Below, in pieces: positions 6,076-43,100 of a stretch of 64,000 nt of DNA; positions within the stretch are counted from its first letter, which is position 1, and each line of letters starts with the position of its first letter. The stretch is from Antedon mediterranea. Its lineage: Eukaryota; Echinodermata; Crinoidea; Comatulida; Antedonidae. The stretch covers positions 5,001 to 69,000 of the forward strand of contig NC_092677.1 in the NCBI RefSeq assembly GCF_964355755.1, given 5' to 3'. The notes beneath the pieces are model-generated. The model saw nothing but the letters and a program-made list of their open reading frames with translations. It searched no databases and was not told the origin of the DNA. The position numbers were made by a program, and so were the translations under genes.

Positions 6076-7829
6076 ATGTCCAATATTGAAGCGGATAACC
6101 CTTCATATAGCCTGTTTATAAATAGTAAAGAATTGACATTTAATGATGATGGAGAACTCCCAATTTCGGTCAGCAGCAGATGCCGGCAGTTTTCAATCAG
6201 ACGAGCTATCCTTCGTCGGCGGCGGACGTCGACTACCACCACCACCACCAGCAGTAGTACTAGGCCTAGGCTTAGTATGAGTAATCAAGGTGAAACCGTA
6301 GAAGTAGCTGTGAAAAATGTACACGATTTTACCGGCGAAGAAATTAAAAAACTCGTCTCTCTTGAACACAGAAATATTGTCCGATTTATTGGAGCCATAA
6401 AAGAGGACGTTGTTAATGCGATCGTGATGGAATTTGTAACTGGGGGTAATTTATATGAATACATTGCCAGAAATAGGGAACAAAAAAAGTGTATTGGCCT
6501 ACGATTGTGTTTTAATCTGACTTTACAATGTGCAAGAGGTCTTGAATACTTACATGGTAAAAACATTATTCATAAAAATGTTCAATCGTATAACTGTCTA
6601 CTCAGTTCAACAACGAATATATTGAATTGTATTCTGAAATTGAGTAATTTTGGTTTTAAAAAACAACACCCTTATGCAATTGACCTGACTACCTTTCATG
6701 AATCGCGCAAGGCGTGGCAAGCACCTGAAGTTATTGACAATACAGAATTTTTCCGAAAAGCTTCCGATGTTTATTCCATAGGAATCATTGTCTGGGAGAT
6801 GCTGACATGCCAAAGGCCATGGAATGGTAAAACTGATCATGAAATTTATGAAAATGTAGTAAAACGTAGTGAACACTTAAAAATTGAAGATGAATGGCCT
6901 TGTCAATTGCAAAAACTGCTAAAAGATTGTTGGAAGACTGAGCGGGCACAAAGACCAATCATTTCTGATATATGTTGCAGAGTAGAAGTGGAAAATGAGT
7001 GTATGTCATCTTTATTAACCTCCTAAAAACAAATTGTGTACATCAGTACTTATGCACAATACAGTATAAGGTTATGCAATTTGACGCTGGTAGACAAAAA
7101 GAAGTTTAACCAACTGTGAATCCTTTATCATTTTTAGTTTACTGTCCCCATGCAAAAGCTCCACTAAATAATGTTTTATTGCACATTCATTACTCTTTAA
7201 TTAACCAACTACTAGAATACAGTATGTTCATTCATACCACTTTTCCAACAAAGGCACATTAAATGAATAGTTTCTTTTTTTTACTTTATTCAATCACATG
7301 AAAGTACTGTATAACCAATTCTCACTCCACTCCTTATACATATTTATCATTAAGTTCACTCCACTCCTTATACATATTTATCATTAAGTTCACTCCTTAT
7401 ACATATTTATCATTAAGTTCACTTAAGTTCACTCCACTCCTTATACATATTTATCATTAAGTTCACTTAACGCTTATTCTTTTTAAACAAGACTGCATTC
7501 TGTTTTTATTGCCAGATCAAAATACTCCTATAGATCTGGATAGGCCATTACGAATGATAGAGATACCAAAAATAGCATCACATCTTAAACCAAAATCACA
7601 TTGGAAAGAGTTTGCAGTTAACAATCTGGGAATTTGTGAAAGTGAATGCGATGCTCTTAAAAAAGAAGGAACCGACGACCAAGATCAATTGATATGTGAT
7701 GTACTTCGCAAATGGCTAATGCGAGAAGGCAAAAATGGAACAGTTGGCACACTAGCAGAACATCTTAAACATTCACGTCTATTTGACGTTTCCGGATACA
7801 AGTTTTTGTGTGGACTAAAACAACCTTAA
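6076..7829 (+). CDS. TKL-type pseudokinase with C-terminal Death domain (RIPK-like architecture)
   Basis: CDS join(6076..7000,7516..7829), 412 residues. The donor is GAGT|GTATGT and the acceptor TTGCCAG|ATC; phase is continuous. Residues about 60-305 form a protein-kinase fold: VAVK lysine, helix C EEIKKL, hinge MEFVTGGNLYEYI, WQAPEV, SDVYSIGIIVWEML and the late Arg in RAQRPII. Two catalytic positions are lost: HRD reads HKN and DFG reads NFG. The glycine-rich loop is replaced by an Arg/Thr/Ser-rich insertion (about residues 40-60) encoded partly by a CCA-type microsatellite. Residues about 330-410 (exon 2) resemble a Death domain (WKEFAVNNLGI, LRKWLMREGKNGTVGTLAEH). Kinase plus Death domain occurs in RIPK1-type and IRAK-type signalling proteins; here a scaffold or decoy role is an inference. 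The start is the first ATG of the open frame; an upstream exon cannot be excluded. It is convergent with REXO4. Confidence 0.75.
7313..7468. repeat. 34-bp tandem repeat in the pseudokinase intron
   Basis: About four copies, some truncated, of TTCACTCCACTCC followed by TTATACATATTTATCATTAAG. The array ends about 50 bp before the Death-domain exon acceptor. Confidence 0.8.
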
Positions 7830-8793: not shown

Positions 8794-11700
8794 CTTTAAA
8801 AAAAAAACGAAATACAAGTTCAATAAAAAAATAAATCCAATTTATTGAGACAGTGAAGCGAGGGAACTTAATGTTGCGCTGCATTTAAAAAAATAATATG
8901 TAGCAGTATAAAGTTGACAACACTAAATTGCTGAAAATGTTGTAGACTGGTGGCAACAAATTCTTATATTGTTTACTTACAGAATCATGTTGACCAGCTT
9001 ATATTGTTTACTTACAGAATCATGTTGACCAGCTTGTATGGTTTTATTCAATATCACTTGGGCCAGCTTTTTCAGGCTTGGTTTAGATCCCTTCAAATTA
9101 AATAAGTCATAATGTAAATAATTTTCACTAATATTGGTAACTTTGGTTTATGTTTCAAACAATTAAATAAAATATGTTTAATTTATTTTATAACATGGGT
9201 TCAAGGATGTACCCAATCGGACGCGCTGAAATGAGTCGTGTGTGCGCTTTTTATTTTTTCACTATCAAGTCATACAAAAAGTGCGCAGCAAAAAAGCATA
9301 ACAGCACTCTGTGTGTAAATCGTATTGCAAAATCTTGCTATGATCGCTTCACGATTTACAACCAGGTCGTCTGCAGCGTGGCCCCCATTAACAGCACTCT
9401 GTGTGTAAATCGTATTGCAAAATCTTGCTATGATCGCCTCACGATTTACAACCAGGTCGTCTGCAGCGTGGCCCCATTAAAAAAGAAAAACAAACACACC
9501 AATGTACTTTATATCAATTCTGCTACACGAAATTTTGCTAATGATGCATCTAGGGCAAGATGTTGAACATTGCCACAAAACGCGAGGCAATCTGATTTGA
9601 TTTATCTTATATCCTAACTTTGATTATGTGGGTTAGACAATATGCTCTTTCCACTAATGTGTTTTTGCAAATAAACTGATTATTATACTTACTTTATTCA
9701 ATCTTCTAAAGGGTTTATAGTCTGATGTATCTCTAACTTTCCTCCGTGGATGGCCAAGGAATAAAACCTTCAAAATAAATAAGACTCTGAACAAAATAGA
9801 AGTGTATGATCCACTTCAGCAAACTCACAAACTTCATTGTCTTACTTGCCAAAATAAATATACAGGGCTAACACAATTATCTACAATATTTAACTAAAAA
9901 ATACAGCAAAAAGGGCTAAATAACTAGCTCAAAAATCACCATCTAAATCTTGCCTTATCCTAAGTATTTTACTATTTGACCTACTAGTGTACCTTAAGAT
10001 CATTTGACAATGCATGGCCCACTATAATCCGATCTTTAAAAATATCAGCTACTTCTCTCTGTACATCTTGAAATTCTTCCCCTATTAAAAGTAATATATG
10101 TTAGCTTTTTTTAAAATCTATTGGTACAAAAAAGTTTCTAATGTGCTTTAATGCCACTAACATCTCCTAAAATCAGTCACTTTATCCATTAACGGCCCCA
10201 GAAGAAATATCCCCTCCACTTGTTTTTTACAGGGTTCGTACGCGTCTTTAAATTCCTTGAAGGTCATGGAAAAATAAATCTCTTTTTTCAAGTACTGGAA
10301 AGTCCTTGAAATTGGCATTTGTCCTTGAATGTCCTGAAAATTGTTAAAATACAATAAAGTTATATGAATTCTTTTTAATAAAGTTTTGAAAACACTGAAC
10401 AATAAAAGTATTAAGTATGAAAGTACATGGAAGATAACAACGTTTGTACGTGCCGACTTTTCCGCCGCCGATAAATGCTCGTACATGAAATAGGCTTTCT
10501 TATCAGGTTGGTTGTTGACTGCAGAACGCCACTGGCCAGTGATGTTCAGATGACAATCACCTTGAAAAAACTTTGCCCAACTATTCTTTTGTTCCCCCAC
10601 AGTACATTATTGCATAATAGCTATTACTATTGAAATAAATACTTGGCCCTTTTTGTGTTCCGATTTTGTTTAAACATTAATTTAACGAATGTAATATTGC
10701 AAACATGCATAGCATTTTAGCATTACACTTTAATTAGTGACTATACTCGCATTCTATTTATAGCCTCTGATAAGCTATAAATAGAATGCGAGTATAGTGA
10801 CCTCTCTCAGCGAGGCTCTCTCACACCGCAAGCGTGTATATTAGCGGTCTCTATATGGCTGCCGATGAGTTTTTTATCGTGCTTTTCTCGTCAGTGGAAA
10901 TCTATCCAACATGTCACGCGTACATGCTTTTTTCAAGAGTCCTGGCTTTTTGATAGCAAATTTTCCCCGTGGATTAACCGTGCGTCAATAAAAACGGAGG
11001 CAAAGTGTAAACTATGTAGAAAAACATTTGATATCTCCAACATGGGACGGTCGGCGTTAATATCTCATCAAAACGGAAAAAAATAAAAAGCATAAACAAC
11101 AAATGGAGTTGAGGTTTAACAATACGACGCAAGAAGTTAATCAATTTTTTAGTAAGTCCAACCCAACAACATCCACCAGTAAATCTAATAGTACCATCAC
11201 CAGTATTATTGAACAACAAGACATACCAGGCACTAGTGTTGATAATAGTATACCGAAACGTACGAACCCAAGTGGCCCGGCGACGATGCAGTATTTCAGT
11301 AGTAGTGAGGAGATTCGTAAAGCAGAAATATTGTGGGCCTTATTCATGACTAACCGGCACTATTCGAACAAGTCGATGGATGAAATAAATGAAGTATTCC
11401 AGGCGATGTTTCCAGATAGTGGAATAGCTGCAAAATTTAGTTGTGGTGAAAAAAAGTCTGCTTATGTTGTTAATTATGGGTTAGCGCCATATTTTAGGTA
11501 AGTTTTGTTTGATATCGATTGATATAGGCCTACAATTTAGATTAAATAAATAATTGTAATAGGCATTTCTGTATTGAGCCTGGTGAGTATGAAAAACAAA
11601 TGTTTTTAGTCTAAGTTTTGTTCATTTTAGGTCATTACTTCTGAAACGTGTTACGGATGAGTCAGATTACGTTCTACTATTTGATAAAAGTCTAAACAAA

Positions 11701-14700
11701 GGTACACAACTAAAGCAAATGGATATCCATGTCCGATTTTGGGCTAACAACCACGTGGAAACTAGATTCTTTGATAGTACATTCATGGGTCATGCTACTG
11801 CTGAGAAAGTCGTCACCGATTTTAAGATATGTGCAGACAAACTAAATCTCGCAAAATTACTTCAAATCGGTATGGATGGTCCAAACGTCAATTGGAAGTT
11901 TTATAAACTTCTCTCTGCCGATATAAAGACGAATTACAATACATCAGTTCTCAACATTGGGTCGTGTGGCCTTCATGTAATGCACAATGGGTTTCAAAGT
12001 GGTGTGCAGTCAATTGATTGGAAGGTCTACAACATACTGTCTAGTTTACAAATACTGTTCAAAGACACCCCTGCTCGTCGGGAAGATTTTGAGAACGCTA
12101 CTGGCACACATGTGTTTGGCCTTAAGTTTTGTAAACACAGATGGGTGGAGAATGCTGCAGTTGCGAAGCGGTTTCTCAGTGTTTTTCCGCACCTTAAAAC
12201 GTACATCAAGCAGGTGACCGAAAAGAAAATAAATGACCCAAAAACAAAGTCGTATGACACTCTGAAGGCTGCTTCAGTAGACTTATTTACGGTGCCCAGA
12301 ATGCACTTTTTTGTGATGGTGGCCACACAAATGGAAACGTTTCTTAAAAAATATCAAACAGATCAACCAATGATACCGTTTCTTGAGAAAGATCTAGTGG
12401 CATGTTTGAGAGGGCTATTGAGATTGGTCATTAAACCAGACGTCCTTTCCGGGCTCGTGAATGGCCAAAGTTTCACTAACTTTAATATAGATGAAACGAA
12501 AAACCATTTACTTGCTAACAAAGTAGACTGTGGAATATTAGCTTCAGAGCATATAAAGGAGTTGATCAAGAAAAAGAAGGTGTCCGAGTTACAAGAACTC
12601 GCGTTTAAAAATGAGTGTAAGACCATGGTTCTTACAATTGTTAAGAAAGTGCTATCTAAATGCCCACTTGGTTTCAGAATCGTTCAAAAAGCGAAATTTC
12701 TCGATCCAAGAAATTTTTGTTTAAGTGGTAATGCGCGATCTCTTAATGTTGGTAGACTAAAGGCTGTATTAAAAATATTAGCAGACAACCAAAAAATCAA
12801 CCATGACATGTGTGATGAAATTGTTAATCAGGCAAACGAATTCTATGATTTTGTTGTGTTAAATAATTTATCAGATTTCACTGAATACGATCCTAAATGT
12901 AGAATTGACGAATTTTACTATGACCGCCTTAGCAAAACCACTAAGTATCACGCATTCTGGGGGGTAGTAAAATTGATTCTAATGCTTTCCCATGGCCAGG
13001 CGACTGTTGAGAGAGGTTTTAGTGTAAACAAGGAGGTAGCGGCTGTCAATATGTCAGAGAGTACATATGTTTCGAAGCGCGTTGTATGCGGTCACATAGC
13101 TTCAGTTGGTGGTGTTTTGTCTGTAAAGATAACGCCCCAATTAATTACTTCTGTGAGTGGGGCTAGGCAACGCTATAATCTCCATCTTGATAATGAAAAA
13201 CGTAAAGCGGCAGAATCTTCAAAGGCTATTAAGAGAAAATCGACGATCGATGAGTTAGATAACTTAAAGAAAGCCAAAAAACGATGTATTGCTGATATTA
13301 TGGGTTTAGAAAAATCGTCTGCAAAGTTTTCCGATCAAGCTGAAAGTAAAGGTAGTCTTACCCTCATTGCCAAAGCTAATAGCTTGCGTAGAACCGCTTC
13401 TGAAAAAAAAGAGCAATTAGCTCAACTAGAGGAAGACATTAGACATAAATTAGAGGAAATCAAAAATAGCTAGGCTATTGTGTAGATTAAATTAGCAGAA
13501 ATTGCTAAGTTGTAAAAAATAAACAATGTAAAAATCTCATGTGTTTATGATCGTTTTGAATAAAGTTCAGAGTGAATTAGAATATGGTTTGATTTCTTTT
13601 ATTTATACCTTCTAAAAAAAACATACGATATACAGAAACGGCATTTAAACTCCGAATTCCGAACGAATTGTAGAACGTCATCCTATAGTAGTATCAAATT
13701 ACCAAATATCGTCGACAGTGCAGTGACTATGGAAACATCAGCCTTTGTTCAATACACGCCGTGACTACCCTCGATAGGCGCGGAAGTCTGGCGCGGTTCC
13801 ACAAAGGCTTTACCAGGGAGTTGTTACAACTCTTTACGCTTTACTACCGTTACGTGTCATTTTACTCGATTTCCCACGCCTATGTTTTCAGTACTGTATG
13901 TTTTTTTAGTGGCTACAGTTAGTACTTGAATTTCTGAAAAACATCGTAACTACGAATTCATTTTTTTTATTAATCTGTTGAACTTAATATTTAGGTATAA
14001 TAATGTCCTTGAAATTTTAAAATGTTGACATTGAATGTCCTTGAAATGTCCTGGAATTTTACTAGCTCACAGGTGTACGAACCCTGTTTTTAGGAAAAAC
14101 CCCAGAATGTGTTATATGTATTTGCTGTAGTGTTGAGTACGAGTGCAATTTCCAGCCATCTAGAGGTGTAATTTTCTCATTCTATTGTCACTGTTGTAAT
14201 TCCTATCTTTGCACATGATATTGTATGCGTAATAAAAAGGAGTGTATGTTGGGTTAAAATAGGCCTAATTTAGATACCACTACCTTTTTGGATGTATGTG
14301 TTTTCGCTGTTGAAGTCTAGGAATTCCCCTTTTAAAACACATGCATCATCAAACCACAAAGTTAGTTATAGTTTGCCGATTTATTTTAATAATAAACATT
14401 TTGAACGCATGTCATTTAAGGATTGAAATGTGCTTGTAAATTGATTAAAACTATTTAAAATTGCTCAGAAAGAAAGCTTCCACAAAATGCTCAATTCACT
14501 TTTATTTTTCCCCTCACCTTTCAAAAACAGATCTGCGTCGTTGTCCATGCCTGCCTGCCTGATTGGATGTGGGTATAAAAAGGTTGCTAAATGTGCTTAC
14601 CTGATTGGATATGGTGTGCTTTAATGCCACTAACATCTGTCCTATAATCAGTCACTTTCTCTCTTGGTTTAACATATTTGTCATAAACACATTTTCCAAA

Positions 14701-17700
14701 TTCATTCACAATTGAAACTCTAGCTAAAATGCTCTCCTGTCCCTTGTAGCCAACACCTACCATTTCACAATCAACAGCAACATGTTTTGTTAAGCTGTGA
14801 ATAAATGAGAAAGACCACTGTGTTGGTTTCCCATTTGGACACAACACAAGGGTGTATTTTCATTTCAAAGACCTTTATTTTCCTCCATAGCAATACAATA
14901 CAAAATAGTATACAGAAATGATAAGGTAAATTAATTAAGATTATGATGATTGTTGGATGGACAAAAGAAAATAGGCTATGGAGGAAGACATAATTCCAAG
15001 AAGATGTGGGTATCTTGTGCTGGGTATGCCTATGCAAATAAAATGGATATGCACAACACAAGTGAATTGACCAATCACAAGGGACAGTTTGGATGATGAA
15101 TTGCATGATTATTGGTCAAATTACTTGCATTGTGTCCTTGCATTCTAGTGTGAACCAAGCTTTTAGTCAACACAAAAAAATAGTTTTGTTGATAGAATTC
15201 CTACATACTGTAAACCTCATTTTCAAATAAGTTTTGTTAGATGTTAATGTTAGCTATACAGAGATATTTTATCAAACAACAAAAGATAAACTATTAATTG
15301 ACATACTTACCCATCTGTTCCTTCCTCATCAACAAGTGCAACTGACAGTTTTCTTTGCTTTAAATTATTAGAAGGTTCTAATAACATAGGATCTACATCA
15401 TCAAACCAAACATCCTCTTCCAATTCACCTGTTTGTCTACAATAGCAATAATACAAAATATAACATAGGATCTACATCATCAAACCTAACATCCTCTTCC
15501 AATTCACCTGTTTGTCTACAATAGCAATAATACAAAATATAACATAGGATCTACATCATCAAACCAAACATCCTCTTCCAATTCACCTGTTTGTCTACAA
15601 TAGCAATAATACAAAATATAACATAGGATCTACATCATCAAACCAAACATCCTCTTCCAATTCACCTGTTTGTCTACAATAGCAATAATACAAAATATAA
15701 CATAGGATCTACATCATCAAACCTAACATCCTCTTCCAATTCACCTGTTTGTCTACAATAGCAATAATACAAAATATAACATAGGATCTACATCATCAAA
15801 CCAAACATCCTCTTCCAATTCACCTGTTTGTCTACAATAGCAATAATACAAAATATAACATAGGATCTACATCATCAAACCTAACATCCTCTTCCAATTC
15901 ACCTGTTTGTCTACAATAGCAATAATACAAAATATAACATAGGATCTACATCATCAAACCAAACATCCTCTTCCAATTCACCTGTTTGTCTACAATAGCA
16001 ATAATATACAGATATTGACTGCTTAGAGGTTAAATATAAGATTTGACATCCCCGAGGGAATGATATTAAGTTCGAGGGAATATATATTTCCCGAAGCGCC
16101 AGCTGAGGGAAATATATATTCCCCGAGAACTTAATATCATTCCCGAGGGGATGTCAAATCTTATATTTAACCGATATAAAAGGCAATATCTGTTATATTA
16201 TATAGCCAAGAACAAGTCTGCTGGGTTGGGTGAAGCTAGGCTAGGCCTCCTATAGTATTTGTATTGTATTTAAAACAAGCCTGCCTAGACACCTTACCTT
16301 GCGAAGAATAATATACAGATAATTACTAATTAATGATTCCTTGGCAATAAAATATTCACTTAGGCCTAGGCCTAGGTCGTTTAAATTAACAGAAGAATTT
16401 CCATCAATAAGCCTATTAATAATAATATTATAATCAGGTAGGCCGAATAAACAATTCGTCTTCTCTCGATCTTCGAGGAGCCGAATCACCGGATGTTCAG
16501 CGCGTACTAGTTACTAGGTTACTACCGTGAATATTGACCAATCACAAACGGTGTTTCATCACATTTAGGGTGGACTTATAACAAATGAGGGCGCTATGTA
16601 TGCATAGCTTAAATAGTTTAGAAGATTAATTTCTTCAAGCAAATTCCGTGGCCCAGCGGATGAAACGTTGTCTTGCGATGGAGTGACAATTCCACCCGAG
16701 TTCAAGATCGAGTAGATGACTTTTGTTTATTTATCGGCAAACTCGAGTGTTGCACACGAAAATTACACAGTCAATATCATCGTACTCGAGAATTTATATG
16801 ATTAATGACAGGGGACACGATTATTACGCGAAAATTACACAGTCAATATCATCGTTCTCGAGGATATATACGATTTACGATCCTCGCAGCGGTAGTCATG
16901 TGATGCAGTTTCAACCAATCACGTTCGCGTATTTACATAGGCTATGTAATATTACAAAATATAACATAGGATCTACATCATCAAACCAAACATCCTCTTC
17001 CAATTCACCTGTTTGTCTACAATAGCAATAATACAAAATATAACATAGGATCTACATCATCAAACCAAACATCCTCTTCCAATTCACCTGTTTGTCTACA
17101 ATAGCAATAATACAAAATATAACATAGGATCTACATCATCAAACCTAACATCCTCTTCCAATTCACCTGTTTGTCTACAATAGCAATAATACAAAATATA
17201 ACATAGGATCTACATCATCAAACCAAACATCCTCTTCCAATTCACCTGTTTGTCTACAATAGCAATAATACAAAATATAACATAGGATCTACATCATCAA
17301 ACCAAACATCCTCTTCCAATTCACCTGTTTGTCTACAATAGCAATAATACAAAATATAACATAGGATCTACATCATCAAACCAAACATCCTCTTCCAATT
17401 CACCTGTTTGTCTACAATAGCAATAATACAAAATATAACATAGGATCTACATCATCAAACCAAACATCCTCTTCCAATTCACCTGTTTGTCTACAATAGC
17501 AATAATACAAAATATAACATAGGATCTACATCATCAAACCTAACATCCTCTTCCAATTCACCCGTTTGTCTACAATAGCAATAATACAAAATATAACATA
17601 GGATCTACATCATCAAACCTAACATCCTCTTCCAATTCACCTGTTTGTCTACAATAGCAATAATACAAAATATAACATAGGATCTACATCATCAAACCAA

Positions 17701-20700
17701 ACATCCTCTTCCAATTCACCCGTTTGTCTACAATAGCAATAATACAAAATATAACATAGGATCTACATCATCAAACCAAACATCCTCTTCCAATTCACCT
17801 GTTTGTCTACAATAGCAATAATACAAAATATAACATAGGATCTACATCATCAAACCAAACATCCTCTTCCAATTCACCTGTTTGTCTACAATAGCAATAA
17901 TACAAAATATAACATAGGATCTACATCATCAAACCAAACATCCTCTTCCAATTCACCTGTTTGTCTACAATAGCAATAATAAAAAATATAACATAGGATC
18001 TACATCATCAAACCAAACATCCTCTTCCAATTCACCCGTTTGTCTACAATAGCAATAATACAAAATATAACATAGGATCTACATCATCAAACCAAACATC
18101 CTCTTCCAATTCACCCGTTTGTCTACAATAGCAATAATACAAAATATAACATAGGATCTACATCATCAAACCAAACATCCTCTTCCAATTCACCCGTTTG
18201 TCTACAATAGCAATAATACAAAATATAACATAGGATCTACATCATCAAACCAAACATCCTCTTCCAATTCACCCGTTTGTCTACAATAGCAATAATACAA
18301 ACTAGATTTGAACTCGTCACTACGGACGAGTTAGGTTATCCGCAGTGCAAAAGCCACGTGCACGTCATACGTTAGAATAGTGCGCGCAAAAAAATAAAAC
18401 GATTATGGCATTGAAAAATGTTAGTGCGCTCTCTATGTTGCGTCGCGTCTAAGTATATACGGTATAACACTATATACTGTATACGTACTACATACAGTGC
18501 AGAATAGGTGAAAATAAGTGACCAAAGTTATTGACGCATTTGAACATGATGACGTCATCACAATTTTTTAAATGGTAGATCATGCGAAAGGTAATTGATT
18601 GATCTAGACAATATAAAAAAATTGAGTGAAATGGAATAAGGATAAGTAGAGATGCGCTCTATTAAATTGACGAGCTATGACGAAAGAGAAAAAAATCCTA
18701 TATTTTATATTCGGGTGGCCATACGATGACGTCACAATGTCTGGTTAGCCCTATCAATGCATGATTCGAGAAAAACAACTCATCTACTTCCAGAATCTGA
18801 AATTTTAAATATTTTCACCTCGGAGTTTAGAATCTATGACTTTTTAAAAAAAGGCATAATTTTCACAAATTTTTGAACTTTTTCATCAAAAACGCGCGCA
18901 AATTGTTCAATTCTACGTGCTCGTATGACGTGATTTTAAGTCGAAATTGATTGAAAATTGGTAAATGTACTAGAAAAGGCAGAAAAAACAAAAATCAAGC
19001 AAAAAAAAGATGTTTTTGCGCTACGTGCGCACGCGCGCGTAAAAAATATGCGCACGCTTGGGAATTTTTGAAATGCTCAAAATGACCTGAAACGCGTAGA
19101 AAGTTGATTAGAAATGAATTTTTCGCAATTTGAAATTTTAAACGCGCGTGCGCGCGTAACTTTATGTCAAACATGCCATTTTTAATCCATAGAAAGTTTG
19201 CCCTTGATATGACTTAAATGTTCACCAAGTGTCATTACAAAATGACTTTTGCTTTTTAGTCTATGTTAAATACGCGAAATTCATAAAATCGCGCGTAGCT
19301 TACGCTGCGCGACTCTAAAGTAAAAAAACGAGCTGTCCTGCACTTCTACACATAGAGGTAAATCTTCTGACAAAGTTATACGATGTAATGTTGATCAGAA
19401 TTTGAGATACACGTGACACAAAATTTTGGGAAAGAAAGAAGAATAACATAGAAAAAAAAAAAAAAAAACTAGACATGAAACTCGTCACTTTGACGAGTTA
19501 GTTATCCGCACGACAAACGCCACGTCCACGCCATACGTTGGAATATTGCACACGGAAAAAGATTATGGCATTATGACCTGAACTGAAGACTATGATATGG
19601 TGTTATTGCTGAATTCTATTATTTTGATTCATATATAGTATACACAGTGTAATCTGTATACATATCACATACAGTGTAGAATAGGGGAAATTACGGGACC
19701 CGCTATTTATTGCAATTTTTAACATGTTGATGGTTTTAAAATGAAACGCGAAGGTAGCAATTTTGGAAGGAAATTATCTCAGCAACAATATATTAACGTG
19801 TAGAAGAAATTTGAATGCGTGAAATATTAATGCGCGCTCTTTTAAATGTAATGAACTATGACGCAAAAGATGAAAATACGACTTTTTTTATTTAACTGGC
19901 CATATGATGACGTCACCACATCCGATTGGCAAAATTTTCACATGATTTTGTATCTAAAATCCAATAGCTTCAAGAAAACGTTTTAATCGTGATTATCACA
20001 TTTTATTCTTACGAGCTATAACAGATTAAAATTTACTGTAAAGATGAAATTAATGCCACACGTAATTTAAATTTTTAGGCATGATGACGTCATAAAAATT
20101 AAAATATTTTCAACTCATGCTAAAGATAGTTGATTGACCTAGACAATATCAAAATTGGGGTGAAAATGGAAAACGGATAAGTGGAGATGCCCTCTATTAA
20201 ATGTGAGGAGTTATGACGAAAGATACAAAAATCCAAAATTTCATATTCGCGTGGCCATACAATGACGTCAAAATGTCCTGTTAGCCATATTAATGCATGA
20301 TTTGATATCTAAAACTCATCAACTTCCAGAATATGTAATAAAAATAACTTTCACCGTGTAGTTTAGAAACTACGACTGTTTAAAAAAAGGCATAATTTTG
20401 ACGATTTTTTTAGCTTTTTGATCAAATACGCGCGCAAATTATTCAATTCGACGTGCTCGTAATGACGTAATTTTAAGTCGAAATTGTTTAAAAGTTAGTA
20501 AAATTACTAGAAAAGGCTGGAAAAACATAAATCACGCGAAAAAAGTATGTTTTTAAAGCTACGTGCGCCCCTCGCGCGTAAAAATTTGCGCCCGTGTGGG
20601 AATTTTTGACATGCTCAAAATGACAAGAAATGCATAGAAAGTTGATTAGAAATTGATTTTTCGCATTTTAAAATTTTAAATGCGCGTGCGCGCGTAACGT

Positions 20701-23700
20701 TGTGTGAAACATGCCATTTTTAATCCACAGAAAGTTGACTCTTGATATGAATTAAATTTTCACCAAGTCTCAATACAAAATGACTTTCGGTTTTTAATCT
20801 ATTATCAATCATTTTAATTCATAAAATTGCGCGCAAGTCACGTTGCGCAACTCTGACGTTTTTCAAAAATAGGAGGTGCACAACTTCACGTAAATATCTA
20901 TATGTTGACAAAGTTATGATATGTTCTGTTCACACATTTTAGAGAAACAGGGCTCACAAAAAAAGGAAGAAAGACAGAAGAATAATACAGAAAAAGAAAA
21001 AAAAGATCCCATACAATAACAAGGAGTTATCCGCACACTGCCATGTGCGGATAACTAAAAAAAAAAAAAAAAAGATCCTGACAATAACAAGAGGTTATCC
21101 GCCAAGTGCGGATAACCAAATATAACATAGGATCTACATCATCAAACCAAACATCCTCTTCCAATTCACCTGTTTGTCTACAATAGCAATAATACAAAAT
21201 ATAACATAGGATCTACACCATCAAACCTAACATCCTCTTCCAATTCACCTGTTTGTCCACAATAGCAATAATACAAAATATAACGTAGGATCTACATCAT
21301 CAAACCAAACATCCTCTTCCAATTCACCTGTTTGTCTACAATAGCAATAATACAAAATATAACATAGGATCTACATCATCAAACCAAACATCCTCTTCCA
21401 ATTCACCTGTTTGTCTACAATAGCAATAATACAAAATATAACATAGGATCTACATCATCAAACCAAACATCCTCTTCCAATTCACCTGTTTGTCTACAAT
21501 AGCAATAATACAAAATATAACATAGGATCTACACCATCAAACCTAACATCCTCTTCCAATTCACCTGTTTGTCCACAATAGCAATAATACAAAATATAAC
21601 ATAGGATCTACATCATCAAACCAAACATCCTCTTCCAATTCACCTGTTTGTCTACAATAGCAATAATACAAAATATAACATAGGATCTACATCATCAAAC
21701 CAAACATCCTCTTCCAATTCACCTGTTTGTCTACAATAGCAATAATACAAAATATAACATAGGATCTACATCATCAAACCAAACATCCTCTTCCAATTCA
21801 CCTGTTTGTCTACAATAGCAATAATACAAAATATAACATAGGATCTACATCATCAAACCAAACATCCTCTTCCAATTCACCTGTTTGTCTACAATAGCAA
21901 TAATACAAAATATAACATAGGATCTACATCATCAAACCAAACATCCTCTTCCAATTCACCTGTTTGTCTACAATAGCAATAATACAAAATATAACATAGG
22001 ATCTACATCATCAAACCAAACATCCTCTTCCAATTCACCTGTTTGTCTACAATAGCAATAATACAAAATATAACATAGGATCTACATCATCAAACCAAAC
22101 ATCCTCTTCCAATTCACCTGTTTGTCTACAATAGCAATAATACAAAATATAACATAGGATCTACATCATCAAACCTAACATCCTCTTCCAATTCACCTGT
22201 TTGTCTACAATAGCAATAATACAAAATATAACATAGGATCTACATCATCAAACCAAACATCCTCTTCCAATTCACCTGTTTGTCTACAATAGCAATAATA
22301 CAAAATATAACATAGGATCTACATCATCAAACCAAACATCCTCTTCCAATTCACCCGTTTGTCTACAATAGCAATAATACAAAATATAACATAGGATCTA
22401 CATCATCAAACCAAACATCCTCTTCCAATTCACCTGTTTGTCTACAATAGCAATAATACAAAATATAACATAGGATCTACACCATCAAACCTAACATCCT
22501 CTTCCAATTCACCTGTTTGTCTACAATAGCAATAATACAAAATATAACATAGGATCTACATCATCAAACCAAACATCCTCTTCCAATTCACCTGTTTGTC
22601 TACAATAGCAATAATACAAAATATAACGTAGGATCTACATCATCAAACCAAACATCCTCTTCCAATTCACCTGTTTGTCTACAATAGCAATAATACAAAA
22701 TATAACGTAGGATCTACATCATCAAACCAAACATCCTCTTCCAATTCACCCGTTTGTCTACAATAGCAATAATACAAAATATAACGTAGGATCTACATCA
22801 TCAAACCTAACATCCTCTTCCAATTCACCTGTTTGTCTACAATAGCAATAATACAAAATATAACATAGGATCTACATCATCAAACCAAACATCCTCTTCC
22901 AATTCACCTGTTTGTCTACAATAGCAATAATACAAAATATAACATAGGATCTACATCATCAAACCAAACATCCTCTTCCAATTCACCTGTTTGTCTACAA
23001 TAGCAATAATACAAAATATAACATAGGATCTACATCATCAAACCAAACATCCTCTTCCAATTCACCTGTTTGTCTACAATAGCAATAATACAAAATATAA
23101 CATAGGATCTACATCATCAAACCAAACATCCTCTTCCAATTCACCTGTTTGTCTACAATAGCAATAATACAAAATATAACATAGGATCTACATCATCAAA
23201 CCAAACATCCTCTTCCAATTCACCTGTTTGTCTACAATAGCAATAATACAAAATATAACATAGGATCTACATCATCAAACCAAACATCCTCTTCCAATTC
23301 ACCTGTTTGTCTACAATAGCAATAATACAAAATATAACATAGGATCTACATCATCAAACCAAACATCCTCTTCCAATTCACCCGTTTGTCTACAATAGCA
23401 ATAATACAAAATATAACATAGGATCTACATCATCAAACCTAACATCCTCTTCCAATTCACCTGTTTGTCTACAATAGCAATAATACAAAATATAACATAG
23501 GATCTACATCATCAAACCAAACATCCTCTTCCAATTCACCTGTTTGTCTACAATAGCAATAATACAAAATATAACATAGGATCTACATCATCAAACCAAA
23601 CATCCTCTTCCAATTCACCTGTTTGTCTACAATAGCAATAATACAAAATATAACGTAGGATCTACATCATCAAACCAAACATCCTCTTCCAATTCACCTG

Positions 23701-24827
23701 TTTGTCTACAATAGCAATAATACAAAATATAACGTAGGATCTACATCATCAAACCAAACATCCTCTTCCAATTCACCCGTTTGTCTACAATAGCAATAAT
23801 ACAAAATATAACGTAGGATCTACATCATCAAACCTAACATCCTCTTCCAATTCACCTGTTTGTCTACAATAGCAATAATACAAAATATAACGTAGGATCT
23901 ACATCATCAAACCTAACATCCTCTTCCAATTCACCTGTTTGTCTACAATAGCAATAATACAAAATATAACATAGGATCTACATCATCAAACCAAACATCC
24001 TCTTCCAATTCACCTGTTTGTCTACAATAGCAATAATACAAAATATAACGTAGGATCTACATCATCAAACCAAACATCCTCTTCCAATTCACCTGTTTGT
24101 CTACAATAGCAATAATACAAAATATCAAATAGAATTAACAGAAGCAACTGTGTCAATCCAAAATCTTGCACAAACACACCATTTTTCTTTTTATTAGTAG
24201 TTTTATTGTTTGCTATTTGGATTATTGTTAGCAGTACACACAAGTATTTAGTAATAACTCACTGAAATTCCATTGGACTTGCTTGGTTTTTTAACTTCCT
24301 TTTTCTTCTCTGCTGACCAACACGGTCTGTTTTCGGCAAAGTCTGTAGTGCAAAATGAAAAGTTAATTTCAATAAAAAGCTATGGTCAAATGTCAACTAA
24401 AATGAGTGATATTGGGTAGTAGACCAAAGTGGATTTTAACGGAACTGGTTAAAGTAAAGTATAGTTAGGGTTAGTAAATTCAAGTTTCTCACAGATTAAT
24501 CCTCTAATTCAGAGTAGTACTCATTCTTAGTTTCAATGAATTTTCTATGTTTTGATTGAATAATGAAATATCATACCTCATTTAAAGCTTTCCAGTTACA
24601 ATCAACATTTAGATACTGATGAGACTTTGTCACATGCTTTTGTTCAGAACAATTAATACTTGGTAATTTGATCTTATTTGGTTTAGTATCATAGTTGCAC
24701 TGTTGTGTTCTTTTCCTTGTATTACTTCCTAATTTCTTTCTGTTGTTATTTCTTAAGTTACTTTGTTATCTTTATGTTTAGGAGCATGTCTTATTTCAGA
24801 TTTCTTCATGGTTTTATGAGATTTCAT
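8602..24827 (-). CDS. REXO4: REXO4 (REX4 / XPMC2-type RNA exonuclease), eight coding exons
   Basis: A DEDDh 3'-5' exonuclease of the REXO4 family, nuclear/nucleolar and linked to pre-rRNA processing. Exons in transcript order: 24827-24577, 24342-24263, 15436-15311, 14794-14601, 10081-9993, 9767-9693, 9090-9016, 8793-8602, all with GT-AG borders and matching phases. The N-terminal part is basic and contains the family motif NWKALNE. Next come [16 protein letters not shown], Exo[12 protein letters not shown], Exo[12 protein letters not shown] and Exo[17 protein letters not shown], so all five catalytic residues are present. Length is about 360 residues against about 422 in human. Oddities: the ATG in the first exon is out of frame with NWKALNE, one intron carries a hAT transposon, and another carries about 62 tandem copies of the exon-3 acceptor region. 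Confidence 0.9.
8963..9032. repeat. Two-copy 35-bp duplication across a REXO4 splice donor
   Basis: The 35-bp sequence starting CTTATATTGTTTACTTAC occurs at 8963-8997 and 8998-9032. On the minus strand it covers the last 17 bases of the exon and the first 18 of the intron, including GTAAGT. Use of the donor at 9015 keeps frame; the copy 35 nt downstream would shift it. Confidence 0.9.
9016..9090 (-). CDS. REXO4: REXO4 coding exon ([11 protein letters not shown]...HDS)
   Basis: 75 nt, 25 codons, phase 0 on both sides, acceptor TTTGAAG|GGATCT. It matches the family segment before ExoIII (human GRPSLRLLSEKILG). It supplies the catalytic His of HDS. Confidence 0.88.
9300..9478. repeat. Two-copy 90-bp tandem duplication in a REXO4 intron
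   Basis: ACAGCACTCTGTGTGTAAAT starts at 9301 and again at 9391; the copies differ by a few bases. An ORF runs through both, but no family is recognisable and it is antisense within an intron. Confidence 0.85.
9693..9767 (-). CDS. REXO4: REXO4 coding exon ([20 protein letters not shown])
   Basis: 75 nt, phase 0. Donor AATAAA|GTAAGT and acceptor TTTTGAAG|GTTTTATT. It is equivalent to human VLFLDHPKKKIRDTQKYKPF, directly after the ExoII motif. Confidence 0.9.
9993..10081 (-). CDS. REXO4: REXO4 coding exon (ExoII)
   Basis: 89 nt. Acceptor TTTTAATAG|GGGAAG and donor CTTAAG|GTACAC. It encodes [15 protein letters not shown] and [12 protein letters not shown] with the ExoII Asp. Phase agrees with the exon ending IQS-G at 14601. 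Confidence 0.9.
10141..10190 (-). pseudogene. Fragment copied from the REXO4 ExoI exon
   Basis: About 45 bp (TGTGCTTTAATGCCACTAAC, AATCAGTCACTTT) closely match 14611-14660, the end of the exon carrying VTDYR...VSGIKAH. Small indels break the frame (VTDFRRC). It lies 40 bp from the hAT element's left end, in the same intron as its source exon. Confidence 0.75.
10737..10801. promoter_or_regulatory. Perfect 28-bp palindrome with TATAAATA, upstream of the transposase
   Basis: Arms 10737-10764 and 10774-10801 are exact complements around a 9-nt loop. The right arm contains GCTATAAATAG. It ends about 64 bp before the first transposase ATG. A TATA-type promoter or an internal transposase-binding hairpin are both possible. 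Confidence 0.55.
10865..13473 (+). CDS. hAT transposase with N-terminal BED zinc finger (one apparent frameshift)
   Basis: Exon 1 is about 10865-11497, intron 11498-11630 (TTTTAG|GTAAGT to TTCATTTTAG|GTC), exon 2 11631-13473. The N-terminus carries a BED-type finger (CKLC...[12 protein letters not shown]). An A-run near 11078-11100 shifts the frame by one just before the finger's last His, so the reading continues as [13 protein letters not shown]. The central RNase-H-like part includes [20 protein letters not shown] and [10 protein letters not shown]. The C-terminal hAT dimerisation segment is [20 protein letters not shown], followed by a charged coiled-coil-like tail. Apart from the frameshift no stop breaks about 800 codons, which suggests a young copy. 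The frameshift may be real or an assembly error in a homopolymer. Confidence 0.85.
14087..14600. other. REXO4 intron remainder, nothing recognised
   Basis: AT-rich intronic sequence between the right end of the hAT element and the ExoI exon. No coding or structured feature is seen. Confidence 0.6.
14601..14794 (-). CDS. REXO4: REXO4 coding exon (ExoI, catalytic D and E)
   Basis: 194 nt. Acceptor TTCACAG|CTTAAC and donor CCAATCAG|GTAAGC. It encodes [19 protein letters not shown] and [15 protein letters not shown], then [22 protein letters not shown] supplies the two ExoI acidic residues. It is the most conserved exon of the gene. Confidence 0.93.
15311..15436 (-). CDS. REXO4: REXO4 coding exon ([16 protein letters not shown]), source of the 79-bp satellite
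   Basis: 126 nt. Acceptor TATTGTAG|ACAAACAGG and donor GATGG|GTAAGT. It encodes [17 protein letters not shown], then [27 protein letters not shown] is a REXO4 signature (human IWFDDVDP). Its first 52 bases plus the preceding 27 bases of intron form the unit of the adjacent arrays. Confidence 0.9.
15437..16015 (-). repeat. 79-bp satellite, block 1 (about 7 copies)
   Basis: Head-to-tail copies directly abut the authentic exon acceptor at 15436. Each unit, on the minus strand, is 27 nt of intron end (TTGCTATTGTAG) plus 52 nt of exon start up to CCTATGTTA. Copies differ at a few positions, such as ACCAAAC versus ACCTAAC. Confidence 0.95.
16031..16169. repeat. 139-bp near-perfect palindrome
   Basis: TAAATATAAGATTTGACATC at 16031 has its complement ending at 16169. 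The arms meet near GCGCCAGC around 16100, and inner blocks (GAGGGAATATATATTTCCC) are themselves nearly palindromic. It resembles a small foldback MITE. Confidence 0.8.
16647..16712 (+). mobile_element. tRNA-like sequence, probable SINE head
   Basis: An A-box-like GTGGCCCAGCGGATGAAACG is followed by a B-box-like GAGTTCAAGATCGAG at tRNA spacing. The body is too degenerate for a functional tRNA. Confidence 0.45.
16951..18298 (-). repeat. 79-bp satellite, block 2 (about 17 copies)
   Basis: Same unit and orientation as at 15437-16015, with sporadic point variants (ACCTAAC, CACCCG). Every copy keeps the TAG acceptor and the VWFDDVDP coding segment. Confidence 0.95.
18299..21117. mobile_element. 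Unclassified non-coding repeat, two diverged head-to-tail units, inside the satellite
   Basis: Two related units, about 18299-19470 and 19471-21060, each begin with a short hairpin (AACTCGTCAC...GACGAGTTAG) plus GTTATCCGC. Both share GTGGCCATA...ATGACGTCA and blocks of ACGCGCGC. Each ends in an A-rich tract (A-runs at about 19450-19468 and 21050-21073). Short hairpins built on GTTATCCGC/GCGGATAAC close the right side (about 21027-21116). There is no ORF of note. The A-tails suggest retroposition, but the family is unknown. Confidence 0.6.
21118..24125 (-). repeat. 79-bp satellite, block 3 (about 38 copies)
   Basis: The largest block of the unit, ending beside unique intron sequence (GATATTTTGTATTATTGC on the minus strand), the ancestral left border. 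Variants such as ATCTACACCA at 21211 and 21527 recur 316 bp (4 units) apart. A CGTAGG cluster near 22.62-22.80 kb recurs about 1,027 bp (13 units) later. Confidence 0.95.
24263..24342 (-). CDS. REXO4: REXO4 coding exon (basic linker)
   Basis: 80 nt. Acceptor CACTACAG|ACTTTGCC and donor TTTCA|GTGAGT. It encodes [19 protein letters not shown], then QASPMEF, and joins in frame (CA+A) to [10 protein letters not shown] at 15436. The intron between them is 8.8 kb and mostly satellite. Confidence 0.8.
24577..24827 (-). CDS. REXO4: REXO4 first recognised coding exon (NWKALNE) with frame break
   Basis: The acceptor after a T-run (TTTTTTCAG|TATGAAATC) places an ATG at 24827-24825. This opens a basic 24-codon frame ([20 protein letters not shown]) ending at a TAA (24755-24753). 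The frame carrying [13 protein letters not shown] through NWKALNE, which splices correctly onward, is offset by one and has no ATG in this exon. Either one base is missing or extra, or the true N-terminus is encoded elsewhere. Confidence 0.7.
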
Positions 24828-39360: not shown

Positions 39361-39735
39361 AATTAACAGAACTAGTAGCTATGTGCGATGACACATGGCT
39401 ATGTGGATGAGTCACATGGCTAGTAGTATGTGTGCGATGACGCATGGCTATGTGGATGAGTCACATGACTAGTAGTATGTGTGCGATGACACATGGCTAT
39501 GTGGATGAGTCACATGACTATAGTAGTATGTGTGCGATGACACATGGCTATATGGATGGGTCACATGACTAGTAGTATGTACCTATATGCGATGACACAT
39601 GGCTATGTGGATGAGTCACATGACTAGTAGTATGTACCTATGTGCGATGACACGTGGCTATGTGGATGAGTCACATGACTAGTAGTATGTACCTATGTGC
39701 GATGACACATGGCTATGTGGATGAGTCACATGACT
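39361..39735 (-). repeat. Minisatellite made from the ERG C-terminal coding end
   Basis: About seven copies of a 49-55 bp unit containing GATGACACATGGCTATGTGG and ATGAGTCACATGACTAGTAG. On the minus strand each unit encodes a version of [18 protein letters not shown] plus stop. The most upstream copy (39679-39735) is the real ERG terminus; the rest lie 3' of its TAG. Confidence 0.92.
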
Positions 39736-40196
39736 TCCTGGATAAATATTAGCAGCACTTGGTGATGACCAATATGACGTATGCGATCCAAATAAACTAG
39801 CATTGGTTGAGGGAATTGGCGCACCAACTAAGTTGAATTTTCCTGCAGGGTGATATCCTTGAAGATATGATAAATCGGACTGATATCGATACATACTTGG
39901 ATCTGTTTGAACTGGTTGCATTGCTTGAGCCAACCCAGCAAAGTCAAATTTGTAAGCGTATCGTTTACCATGCACTTTGGTCATTATATTTTTATCATAA
40001 TAATATCGTAGTGCTCTGCTAAGCTTGTCGTAATTCATATTTGGTTTACTTTTTCTTTCCCCCCATCGCCTAGCTACTTCATCTGGATCTGTCATTTTGA
40101 ATTCTCCGTTTGTACCTTCCCATGTAATGCAATTTGAATTTGAGCTGTCTGAGAGAAGTTCCAATAAAAACTGCCATAATTGAATCTGCCCACTAC
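39679..40196 (-). CDS. ERG: ERG last exon (ETS domain and C-terminus)
   Basis: 518 nt. Acceptor ATGACAG|GTAGTGGGC. It encodes [20 protein letters not shown] and the whole ETS domain ([52 protein letters not shown]). A Tyr/Ser/Pro-rich tail follows, ending GTYY. The ETS part is nearly identical to human ERG. Confidence 0.97.
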
Positions 40197-43100
40197 CTGT
40201 CATGATAAAAAAGATTGTTTCAAAAATAAATAGTAATAATAATAATAATAACGATAAATCACAATTTTAAATTTAATTTTAAATTATTCAATTGTATGGT
40301 AACATTCATTAAACTAATAAAAGTTTAAAATGTAATGTTGGTTGGTTAAAATCATAATTATTATTTTCTATAGGCCTATAAAGACTAAAGCCGATTTTCC
40401 ACTAGGCGAATTTGTTCGCGCGAATCGAACGCGCCAGCTTGTACGCATGTGTATTCATGTTTACGTCTTCCAAATCCTTCTCTACGCATGCGTATTAGCT
40501 GACGCCTTCGATTCGCGCGAACAAATTCGCCTAGTGGAAAATCGGCTTAAAGCCGATTTTCCACTAGGCGAATTTGTTCGCGCGAATCGAAAGCGTCATG
40601 TTATACGCATGCGTATTCATGTTTCCATCCATCCAGAGAAACCTCATATAAAACAAAATTCTCAGAGTGTGTCCAATCAAGGATTTTCATCTTTAAAAAG
40701 CGACTGATACTATATATGAAATCGCCGGAGCTTCCGAGCGCCACCACTGTTACGGTTAGTGGATGTTCTACGTGGTACGATTAGTTTACTTGTGCCGTCA
40801 ACTGATTGTTATTTTTTGTATTTACTTAACATAGAAATAACAGTTTAGAATAGTGTAGTCTAATCTTTTTACTGATAGAGGAACTCTAACGGTTTGGGTA
40901 GCGCTTGATTTAGGCTATACTGACCATAGATTGGAACAAATTCTAACGATTTGGGTAGCGATTGACTTAGGCTACTGACCATAGAGTGGAACAAATTCTA
41001 AGGGTTTGGGTAGCGATTGATTTAGGCTACTGACCATAGAGTGGAACAAATTCTAACGGTTTGGGTAGCGATTGATTTAGGCTACTGACCATAGAGTGGA
41101 ACAAATTCTAACGGTTTGGGTAGCGATTGATTTAGGCTACTGACCATAGAGTGGAACAAATTCTAACGGTTTGGGTAGCGCTTGATTTAGGCTAATGACC
41201 ATAAAGTGAAACAAATTCTAACGGTTTGGGTAGCGCTTGATTTAGGCTACTGACCATAGAGTGGAACAAATTCTAACGGTTTGCTATGTAATATTAAAAA
41301 TGGAGCCAAACGTATCCTTCAAAATGTGCACGAAATATTAAATATGTTGTCAAATGTACCCTTCAAAATTGTCTCAGGTATCTCAATTTATATAGATAAC
41401 TGATTACTCAGTCATTTATTTGCGCCCTCGTGAGGCGTAGGGTGTAAATATCAATTTAAATTATATGAAATTATAAACAAAATAAGAGAATAAATTACAA
41501 CGTGCTTGTGTTATGTTATAACAAATGAAATTTATTGTAAGATTTATCAAATCATTCAAACATAGGCCTGCAGCACAAGCATAACAATTCAACACATTAA
41601 TTATGTTATCAAATCCAAAAATGTAACTGTATGAGAACTGAAGAACTGATTGTATTTTTCCTTACGGTACTTTATTATTTTAATAATTTGCTAATGAACT
41701 AATTGACCTTTCTTGGAAAAAACACATCATAATATTGAGATATGTTTTTGTATAACAAGTGTGGTCTAAACAAAACCAAGCTAGACAAGTTTTACTGTTT
41801 ATTTACATTTCAAAATTATTAGATCAAGGAAGAGTAAAAAACACAAAAATCAGAAGCCTATATTTTACAAACTCTGAAAGAAAAGGACAAATATCCGTAC
41901 GTCGGAAATGCATTCATCTCGTGGTATCCGCCGAGTCAATAAAATCGAATCGTTATTCAGTGCCTTTTAGTCGTTCAAATAATAATCATAAACGTACTTC
42001 AAGTACCATTTTGCCTGAAGTGTTTAATGGGAACAACTACGCCAAGCCATACCACCGAACAATGTCGAGTACGTTAATAAGTATGCTAACAGAAACGAAG
42101 ACAACAAGTTTAATACAACAAACAAATACAACTCATCTCAACTATGTTTACATACTAAAAACTAATTGATGATAATGATCATTAATTCATTCATAAAGAT
42201 GGCACACGATAACTCCGTTTAAAACCACGTCTAAATTACAGTACGTTACACGAAAACGTAGACCATATAAGTTGCTGAAGTTGTTACGTAATGTATTGTA
42301 GGCTATACGTAAAATTAATAATCAAGTTTAGTGGTCACCCAATCGGTATGGTATATCTAGATTTCTCAAGTAATACAGCATCACAGGTGTTTCACAATGA
42401 ATCGCCTGTCATAGGTGGGAGTTCGTACAAAAGAGAGGATGCAACTAAGATGCATCCATCATAAGTCTAAGATAACAATGATTTATTTGTCACTGAGAAA
42501 CAAATTTGGTGATACAAGATGGACGGGACAAAGTATTAAAGCTTCTAACGATAAAACAAAGATCTTGATGATTTCATCAGTAATCTGAACACCCATAACC
42601 AACCTATATCAATCTTTACAATCTATTTGTTCTATATTGATGTATTTATATATATTTATGTACGTTATTTTGTTATTATGATGAGAACACACTACCTCTT
42701 GTATCCACGCGGGTATTTGTTATTGAATCGATGTATTATTACAGAAAGTAGCAATTGAATTGGCTGTTTTGACAAAATATTTAATTCTGTTATTATTTTT
42801 TTATATTCATTGCAAATGATGCACACCAATGCTATTATTATTATTGTATGCTTGCTTATTCTCAAGCATTTTGATTTAAAATTGATTTTGTTAATATTAT
42901 TTTTATTACCAAAAAAAACCCCAATGTATTTAATGGTATTTTGTAAAATACAAATTATTTTAAGTAAGACGTCAGAATAAATGAGTTAAAGATGACTAGT
43001 ATAAGATGAGTGAGGTTGATTGCTAACAATAGATCGATCCAGTAAACGTATCAAGACATTGATTGAGTAAAACGATTGGGTTAATTATCTGATACTCAGT

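Follow-up and report, generated by a model that had tools for sequence, protein, structure and literature searches.

The window analysed here, a stretch of 64,000 nucleotides, begins 5 kb into contig C8, whose first 5,000 bases are N. Its minus strand carries a gene whose exons, intron and repeat arrays are listed in Table 1. Upon joining exons E2-E8 at GT/AG sites, we obtained an open frame of 276 codons followed by a stop, and the product matched the RNase_T domain with an E-value of 6.5e-19 over profile positions 1-164 of 164. This result supported the first-pass annotation, which had assigned the exon at 15311-15436 to a gene of the REXO4 type. The product gave nine PDB hits, none of which was named REXO4; the best was ISG20L2, with 122 bits. 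Matches to bacterial exonuclease models in NCBIfam were weak, each below the cut-off, and further RNase_T matches in the genome were located on contigs C6 and C1. The best paralogue, on contig C2, scored 159 bits against the same ISG20L2 structure and its open frame lacked the WFDDVD segment, which makes the window gene the better REXO4 candidate. A second REXO4 on C2 was ruled out, as the domain there lies in one exon, no WFDDVD is in frame and the protein is closer to ISG20L2. The gene in the window appears to encode a REXO4-like RNase_T exonuclease. The name REXO4 is taken partly from the layout of this protein, with a WFDDVDP segment ahead of the exonuclease domain. Intron 4 also contains, shortly ahead of E5 (10142-10186), a partial duplicate of the E4 end, in which 43 of 47 aligned positions are identical, with two gaps.

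Table 1. Coordinates of the features at the REXO4-like locus and of the third boundary array in the window.
Feature	Coordinates	Strand	Remarks
Exon E2	24263..24342	-	
Exon E3	15311..15436	-	first 54-56 nt contribute the exon portion of the unit; GT/AG sites, frame
Exon E4	14601..14794	-	start of exonuclease domain (VDCEMVGVG)
Exon E5	9993..10081	-	
Exon E6	9693..9767	-	
Exon E7	9016..9090	-	
Exon E8, through stop codon	8602..8793	-	
Intron E2-E3	15437..24262	-	8,826 nt; donor GTGAGT at 24262, acceptor TTGTAG at 15437
Array block A	15381..16006	-	8 copies, the authentic junction (15381-15459) among them
Insertion 1	16007..16952		dispersed repeat; TA target duplication (2 bp); inside an array unit
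Array block B	16953..18301	-	17 copies
Insertion 2	about 18302..21117		first 1.17 kb (18304-19470) is a dispersed family
Array block C	21118..24125	-	38 copies; acceptor AG lost in two
Unique 5' part of intron E2-E3	24126..24262	-	reaches the junction between intron and first copy
Second boundary repeat, same gene	8963..9044	-	35-bp unit over the 3' end of E7 and the GTAAGT donor; 2.3 copies
Third boundary array	39378..39735	-	55-bp unit covering the terminal codons and the stop of the Ets-domain gene (39679-40203); about 6.8 copies

The region upstream of E2 is less regular: one frame has a start but runs into a stop, and the one entering E2 opens behind another stop. Together with the partial copy of the E4 end, these stops would suit a decaying gene, in which the array in intron E2-E3, the duplicated E7 donor and the N-terminal region are all marks of a pseudogene. 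However, the 276-codon frame of E2-E8 is uninterrupted, its exons meet at GT/AG sites and the RNase_T domain is complete. In the protein search, moreover, the E3 residues were found at this locus only, and the best paralogue, that on C2, resembles ISG20L2 more closely. A pattern search gave two hits outside the locus, C2:5096739 and C7:18292609, and the reversed control pattern gave three. We consider a pseudogene unlikely.

A scan of the minus strand revealed 63 copies of a 79-bp unit at 15381-24123, namely the authentic E3 junction and 62 extra copies. The copies form three blocks of 8, 17 and 38 that are separated by two insertions, and TRF reported arrays of the unit at 15381-16006, 16948-18301 and 21118-24132. 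This arrangement agreed with the earlier description of about 62 copies in three blocks ahead of E3. On the minus strand, the unit opens with ATTTTGTATTATTGCTATTGTAG (intron) and continues with ACAAACAGGTGAATTGG... (exon), so it spans the intron-exon boundary. It consists of 23-25 nt of intron and 54-56 nt of exon, not of the 27 and 52 nt proposed in the first-pass annotation; the range of 2 nt arises from a dinucleotide, AT, that is common to the intron end and the exon end of the unit. At its 5' end the array begins with a copy that follows unique intron, and at its 3' end the last copy is E3 itself, where the authentic boundary is retained and the frame is open. The parent boundary therefore survives at both ends, as had been claimed. 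Such an array would not arise by chance.

Besides the array and the two insertions, the E2-E3 intron has a short stretch of unique sequence at its 5' end. Slightly more than half of it is an array of E3's own acceptor; the earlier statement that the satellite fills the intron holds for this portion, but most of the remainder is taken up by the two insertions. The unit was also compared with the whole genome (354 Mb in 18 contigs, 11 of them large), which yielded at least 63 matches with 96-100% identity, a lower bound as are all counts of this search, every one of them at the REXO4-like locus. The repeat is thus confined to a single gene, and a dispersed satellite or mobile unit was ruled out.

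Sequence differences among the copies were few, the mean pairwise value being 0.7% in block A, 1.1% in block B and 1.6% in block C (first six positions excluded). Among the 63 copies, TGG>AGG (W>R) was present in 14, ATG>ACG (M>T) in nine and GAT>GGT (D>G) in three, and the synonymous ACA>ACG in 10; in all, three of the five main variants change an amino acid, and authentic E3 is free of every one of them. One further copy differs at unit position 6, and copies bordering the insertions deviate at their first bases. Additionally, two of the 62 extra copies (21201-21279 and 21517-21595) have lost the acceptor AG and carry TGG in place of TAG. The first-pass annotation had described all the copies it examined as keeping both the acceptor and the coding words, and neither part of that description can be maintained. 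The M>T and D>G variants and the loss of AG are confined to block C. A triple variant that includes the lost AG recurs four units (316 bp) apart, and a four-unit variant pattern recurs 13 units (1,027 bp) apart, as multi-unit unequal exchange would give. The recurring multi-unit patterns and the small differences within blocks indicate concerted turnover in the 79-bp cluster, and the recent amplification or homogenisation suggested earlier fits both.

The unit phase continues across insertion 1, which lies inside a unit and is flanked by a TA duplication; the array at this place therefore predates the insertion. Insertion 1 belongs to a family with at least 44 near-full-length matches in the genome at 93-100% identity, its own copy counted, which is a lower bound since 40 of 878 candidates were scored. 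It contains a long fold-back near one end, and its first ~180 bases match the opposite strand at many copies. A search with 18304-19470, the initial 1.17 kb of insertion 2, gave at least 82 genome matches from 21 of 3,621 candidates scored, many of them at 99% and with neighbouring matches often in tandem. Elsewhere in the genome this family forms ~1.2-kb units, often in tandem. It was ruled out that the first gap, or the initial 1.17 kb of the second gap, is diverged array, as both are dispersed repeat families.

Near-identical units of 79 bp in tandem make assembly difficult, and the array may have been expanded or misjoined in the assembly. Each block, however, has a distinct variant pattern, and both insertions are cleanly bounded, with a target duplication at the first; an artefact is therefore very improbable.

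To place the locus in its surroundings, arrays were counted in the window and in other parts of the genome. The window contained 33 merged arrays that covered 28.6% of it. Near contig starts, eight picked 10-kb places (three on C8 at 80-210 kb and five on other contigs at 40-50 kb) contained 37 arrays, which covered 31.6% of 80 kb and from 8.7 to 71.5% per place. In the interior, seven 10-kb places, picked and not random, with a GC content of 0.295-0.334, contained 10 arrays that covered 15.0% of 70 kb. Almost all of this was due to one satellite in a single place (L011, 96.6%), the other six places having 0-4.0%; it is an 88-bp satellite of ~111 copies at L011 332-9990. The kinase loci (best 30 of 140 matches) contained 20 arrays over 112 kb, with a coverage of 4.4%. 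The abundance of arrays in the window and near contig starts, compared with the interior and the kinase loci, suggests that the REXO4-like gene lies in a minisatellite belt. No array touched a kinase match in these 30 loci, the best 30 of 140 matches, of which L012 and L013 overlap and in which a kinase match need not begin or end at a splice site. Arrays at boundaries are accordingly not evidently common elsewhere in the genome.

Three arrays in the window were located at gene boundaries, where 0.57 were expected by chance. The corresponding probabilities were 0.013 for three or more and 0.40 for one or more, from a post hoc test of 31 arrays (the three 79-bp blocks counted as one) against 17 boundaries in a subset of the window genes; the boundary list was drawn up after the arrays had been seen, and the Ets exon had its 5' end positioned by eye. 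This post hoc excess leaves room for a bias towards boundaries. The 55-bp repeat of the Ets-domain gene carries the stop codon of that gene along into the 3' region. The plus strand has, at 6076-7829, an open frame for a protein kinase and, after it, one for a Death domain.

We compared the extra acceptors, referred to here as decoys, with the real one. The 23-nt context of the real acceptor is exact in 58 of the 62, and the array acceptor has 11 pyrimidines in 17 positions, within the range of 10-14 in five further acceptors. Folding of three units was less stable than that of any of 200 shuffles (z +2.84); RNA structure therefore does not conceal the decoys, and this possibility was ruled out. 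When E2 was joined to each decoy and translated conceptually without further splicing, an in-frame stop was found in all 62 cases. The stop lay 76 nt past the acceptor in 58 copies (including both that lack AG), 88 nt in two, 103 nt in one and 148 nt in one; the 76-nt stop is supplied by the acceptor TAG of the following copy.

Stops behind every decoy when no further splicing follows, and an exact acceptor in nearly all of them, are what a regulatory array might have, in which the copy number would tune gene output through the fraction of transcripts that contain a stop and are degraded. However, the loss of AG in two copies and the common amino-acid variants give no sign of selection on the copies, and we regard such a function as quite improbable.

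The units also carry a donor-like site, CAG/GTGAAT, 8 nt past the acceptor, in which CGG replaces CAG in 10 copies. Its computed pairing with U1 was -8.4 kcal/mol (-7.7 for the CGG form), compared with -5.8, -5.7, -12.2, -11.0, -5.6, -7.5 and -7.0 kcal/mol for the donors of E1-E7, respectively; it thus pairs better than five of the seven donors, including that of the E2-E3 intron itself. Because CAG/GT provides an AG/GT juxtaposition, every unit could act as a ratchet point (TTGTAG, 8 nt, donor CAG/GTGAAT) from which the 8.8-kb intron is removed stepwise by recursive splicing. However, the donor-like site belongs to the normal start of E3, and the units therefore have it by descent; it is also weakened in the CGG copies, and its proper use requires a second AG or a skipped 8-nt exon. 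Stepwise removal is highly improbable, and the same holds for its extension, in which mis-spliced intermediates would be re-spliced until the exon-proximal acceptor is reached.

We consider it very probable that the array is a neutral mirage, that is, a minisatellite seeded at the boundary, with no function of its own, and tolerated through the choice of the exon-proximal acceptor. The 79-bp piece that straddles the E3 acceptor would have been duplicated in tandem at the 2-bp microhomology, and unequal exchange or slippage probably then raised the number of intronic copies to dozens, after which two insertions would have interrupted the array. We infer that the array is tolerated because E2 would be spliced to the final acceptor, the one adjoining E3; exon definition most likely directs this choice, the strong donor of E3 being 126 nt distant. 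Transcripts in which a decoy is used would meet a stop codon and be degraded. Two observations speak against tolerance: the decoys are not weaker in sequence than the real site, as the identical 23-mers show, and the E2 donor is weak, at -5.7 kcal/mol to U1.

Arrays of this kind have been described in lancelets, where mirages are minisatellites of single genes that extend across an intron-exon boundary, be it at the 5' or the 3' splice site (PMC3087553, PMC3902484). According to the available portions of these reports, they occur in Adh3, in the globins BflGb6 and BflGb9 and in troponin C, with similar imperfect repeats in PGBD5, and Adh3 data and RT-PCR of the globins suggested that they do not disturb splicing (PMC3087553, PMC3902484). 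The 79-bp array is an extreme mirage of this described kind. In particular, the arrangement in BflGb6, as given in those portions, is the same, with an intron end and an exon start in the unit. The two arrays also differ. BflGb6 haplotypes are described there with six and three repeat units, compared with 62 extra copies in the REXO4-like gene, and the copy number is thus far above those of the lancelet globin cases in these accounts (PMC3087553, PMC3902484). In addition, the 79-bp array is interrupted by insertions, unlike the lancelet mirages, and whereas splicing of the latter is described as checked by RT-PCR, the array is described here from the genomic sequence of one assembled haplotype. 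The genome, too, is unlikely to be that of a lancelet: its 18 contigs had pointed to B. japonicum, but 11 of them are large, the GC content at the interior places is low for a lancelet and the GFP family gave no match, in a search that was equally silent in the control genomes.

Related repeats are present in other animals. In human genes within segmental duplications, internal tandem repeats with ~30-bp units and ~4 copies were found at exon-intron boundaries, according to the available part of that study (PMC2812944). These are, like the 79-bp array, recently expanded minisatellites at exon-intron boundaries, so boundary minisatellites are not confined to lancelets. The same account reports that the human repeats can form novel introns and alternative splicing (PMC2812944); tolerance is therefore not the sole known outcome. 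In Drosophila, introns are described as gained through tandem duplication of proto-splice sites (PMC2891723). As far as that description extends, the duplications resemble the 79-bp array in being short, in tandem and with splice signals, but they create a new intron in coding sequence, whereas the 79-bp array enlarges an existing one (PMC2891723). Introns of a lancelet VCBP gene, in the available part of that report, hold partial exons with canonical splice sites (PMC2632668).

Since 58 of the 62 decoys are identical to the real acceptor, position rather than local sequence must mark the right site. The array thereby offers a natural test of splice-site choice, in which exon definition can be set against first-come kinetics. 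Zhuo et al. (2007) are said to have reported human introns that came from tandem arrays and, judging by the title, to have linked such arrays to splicing.

The REXO4-like gene duplicates not only a 3' splice site, at E3, but also a 5' splice site, at E7. The E7 duplication gives two GTAAGT donors, and the extra one lies 35 nt downstream, a distance that is not a multiple of three. In both duplications, the exon-proximal site is the one that preserves the reading frame.
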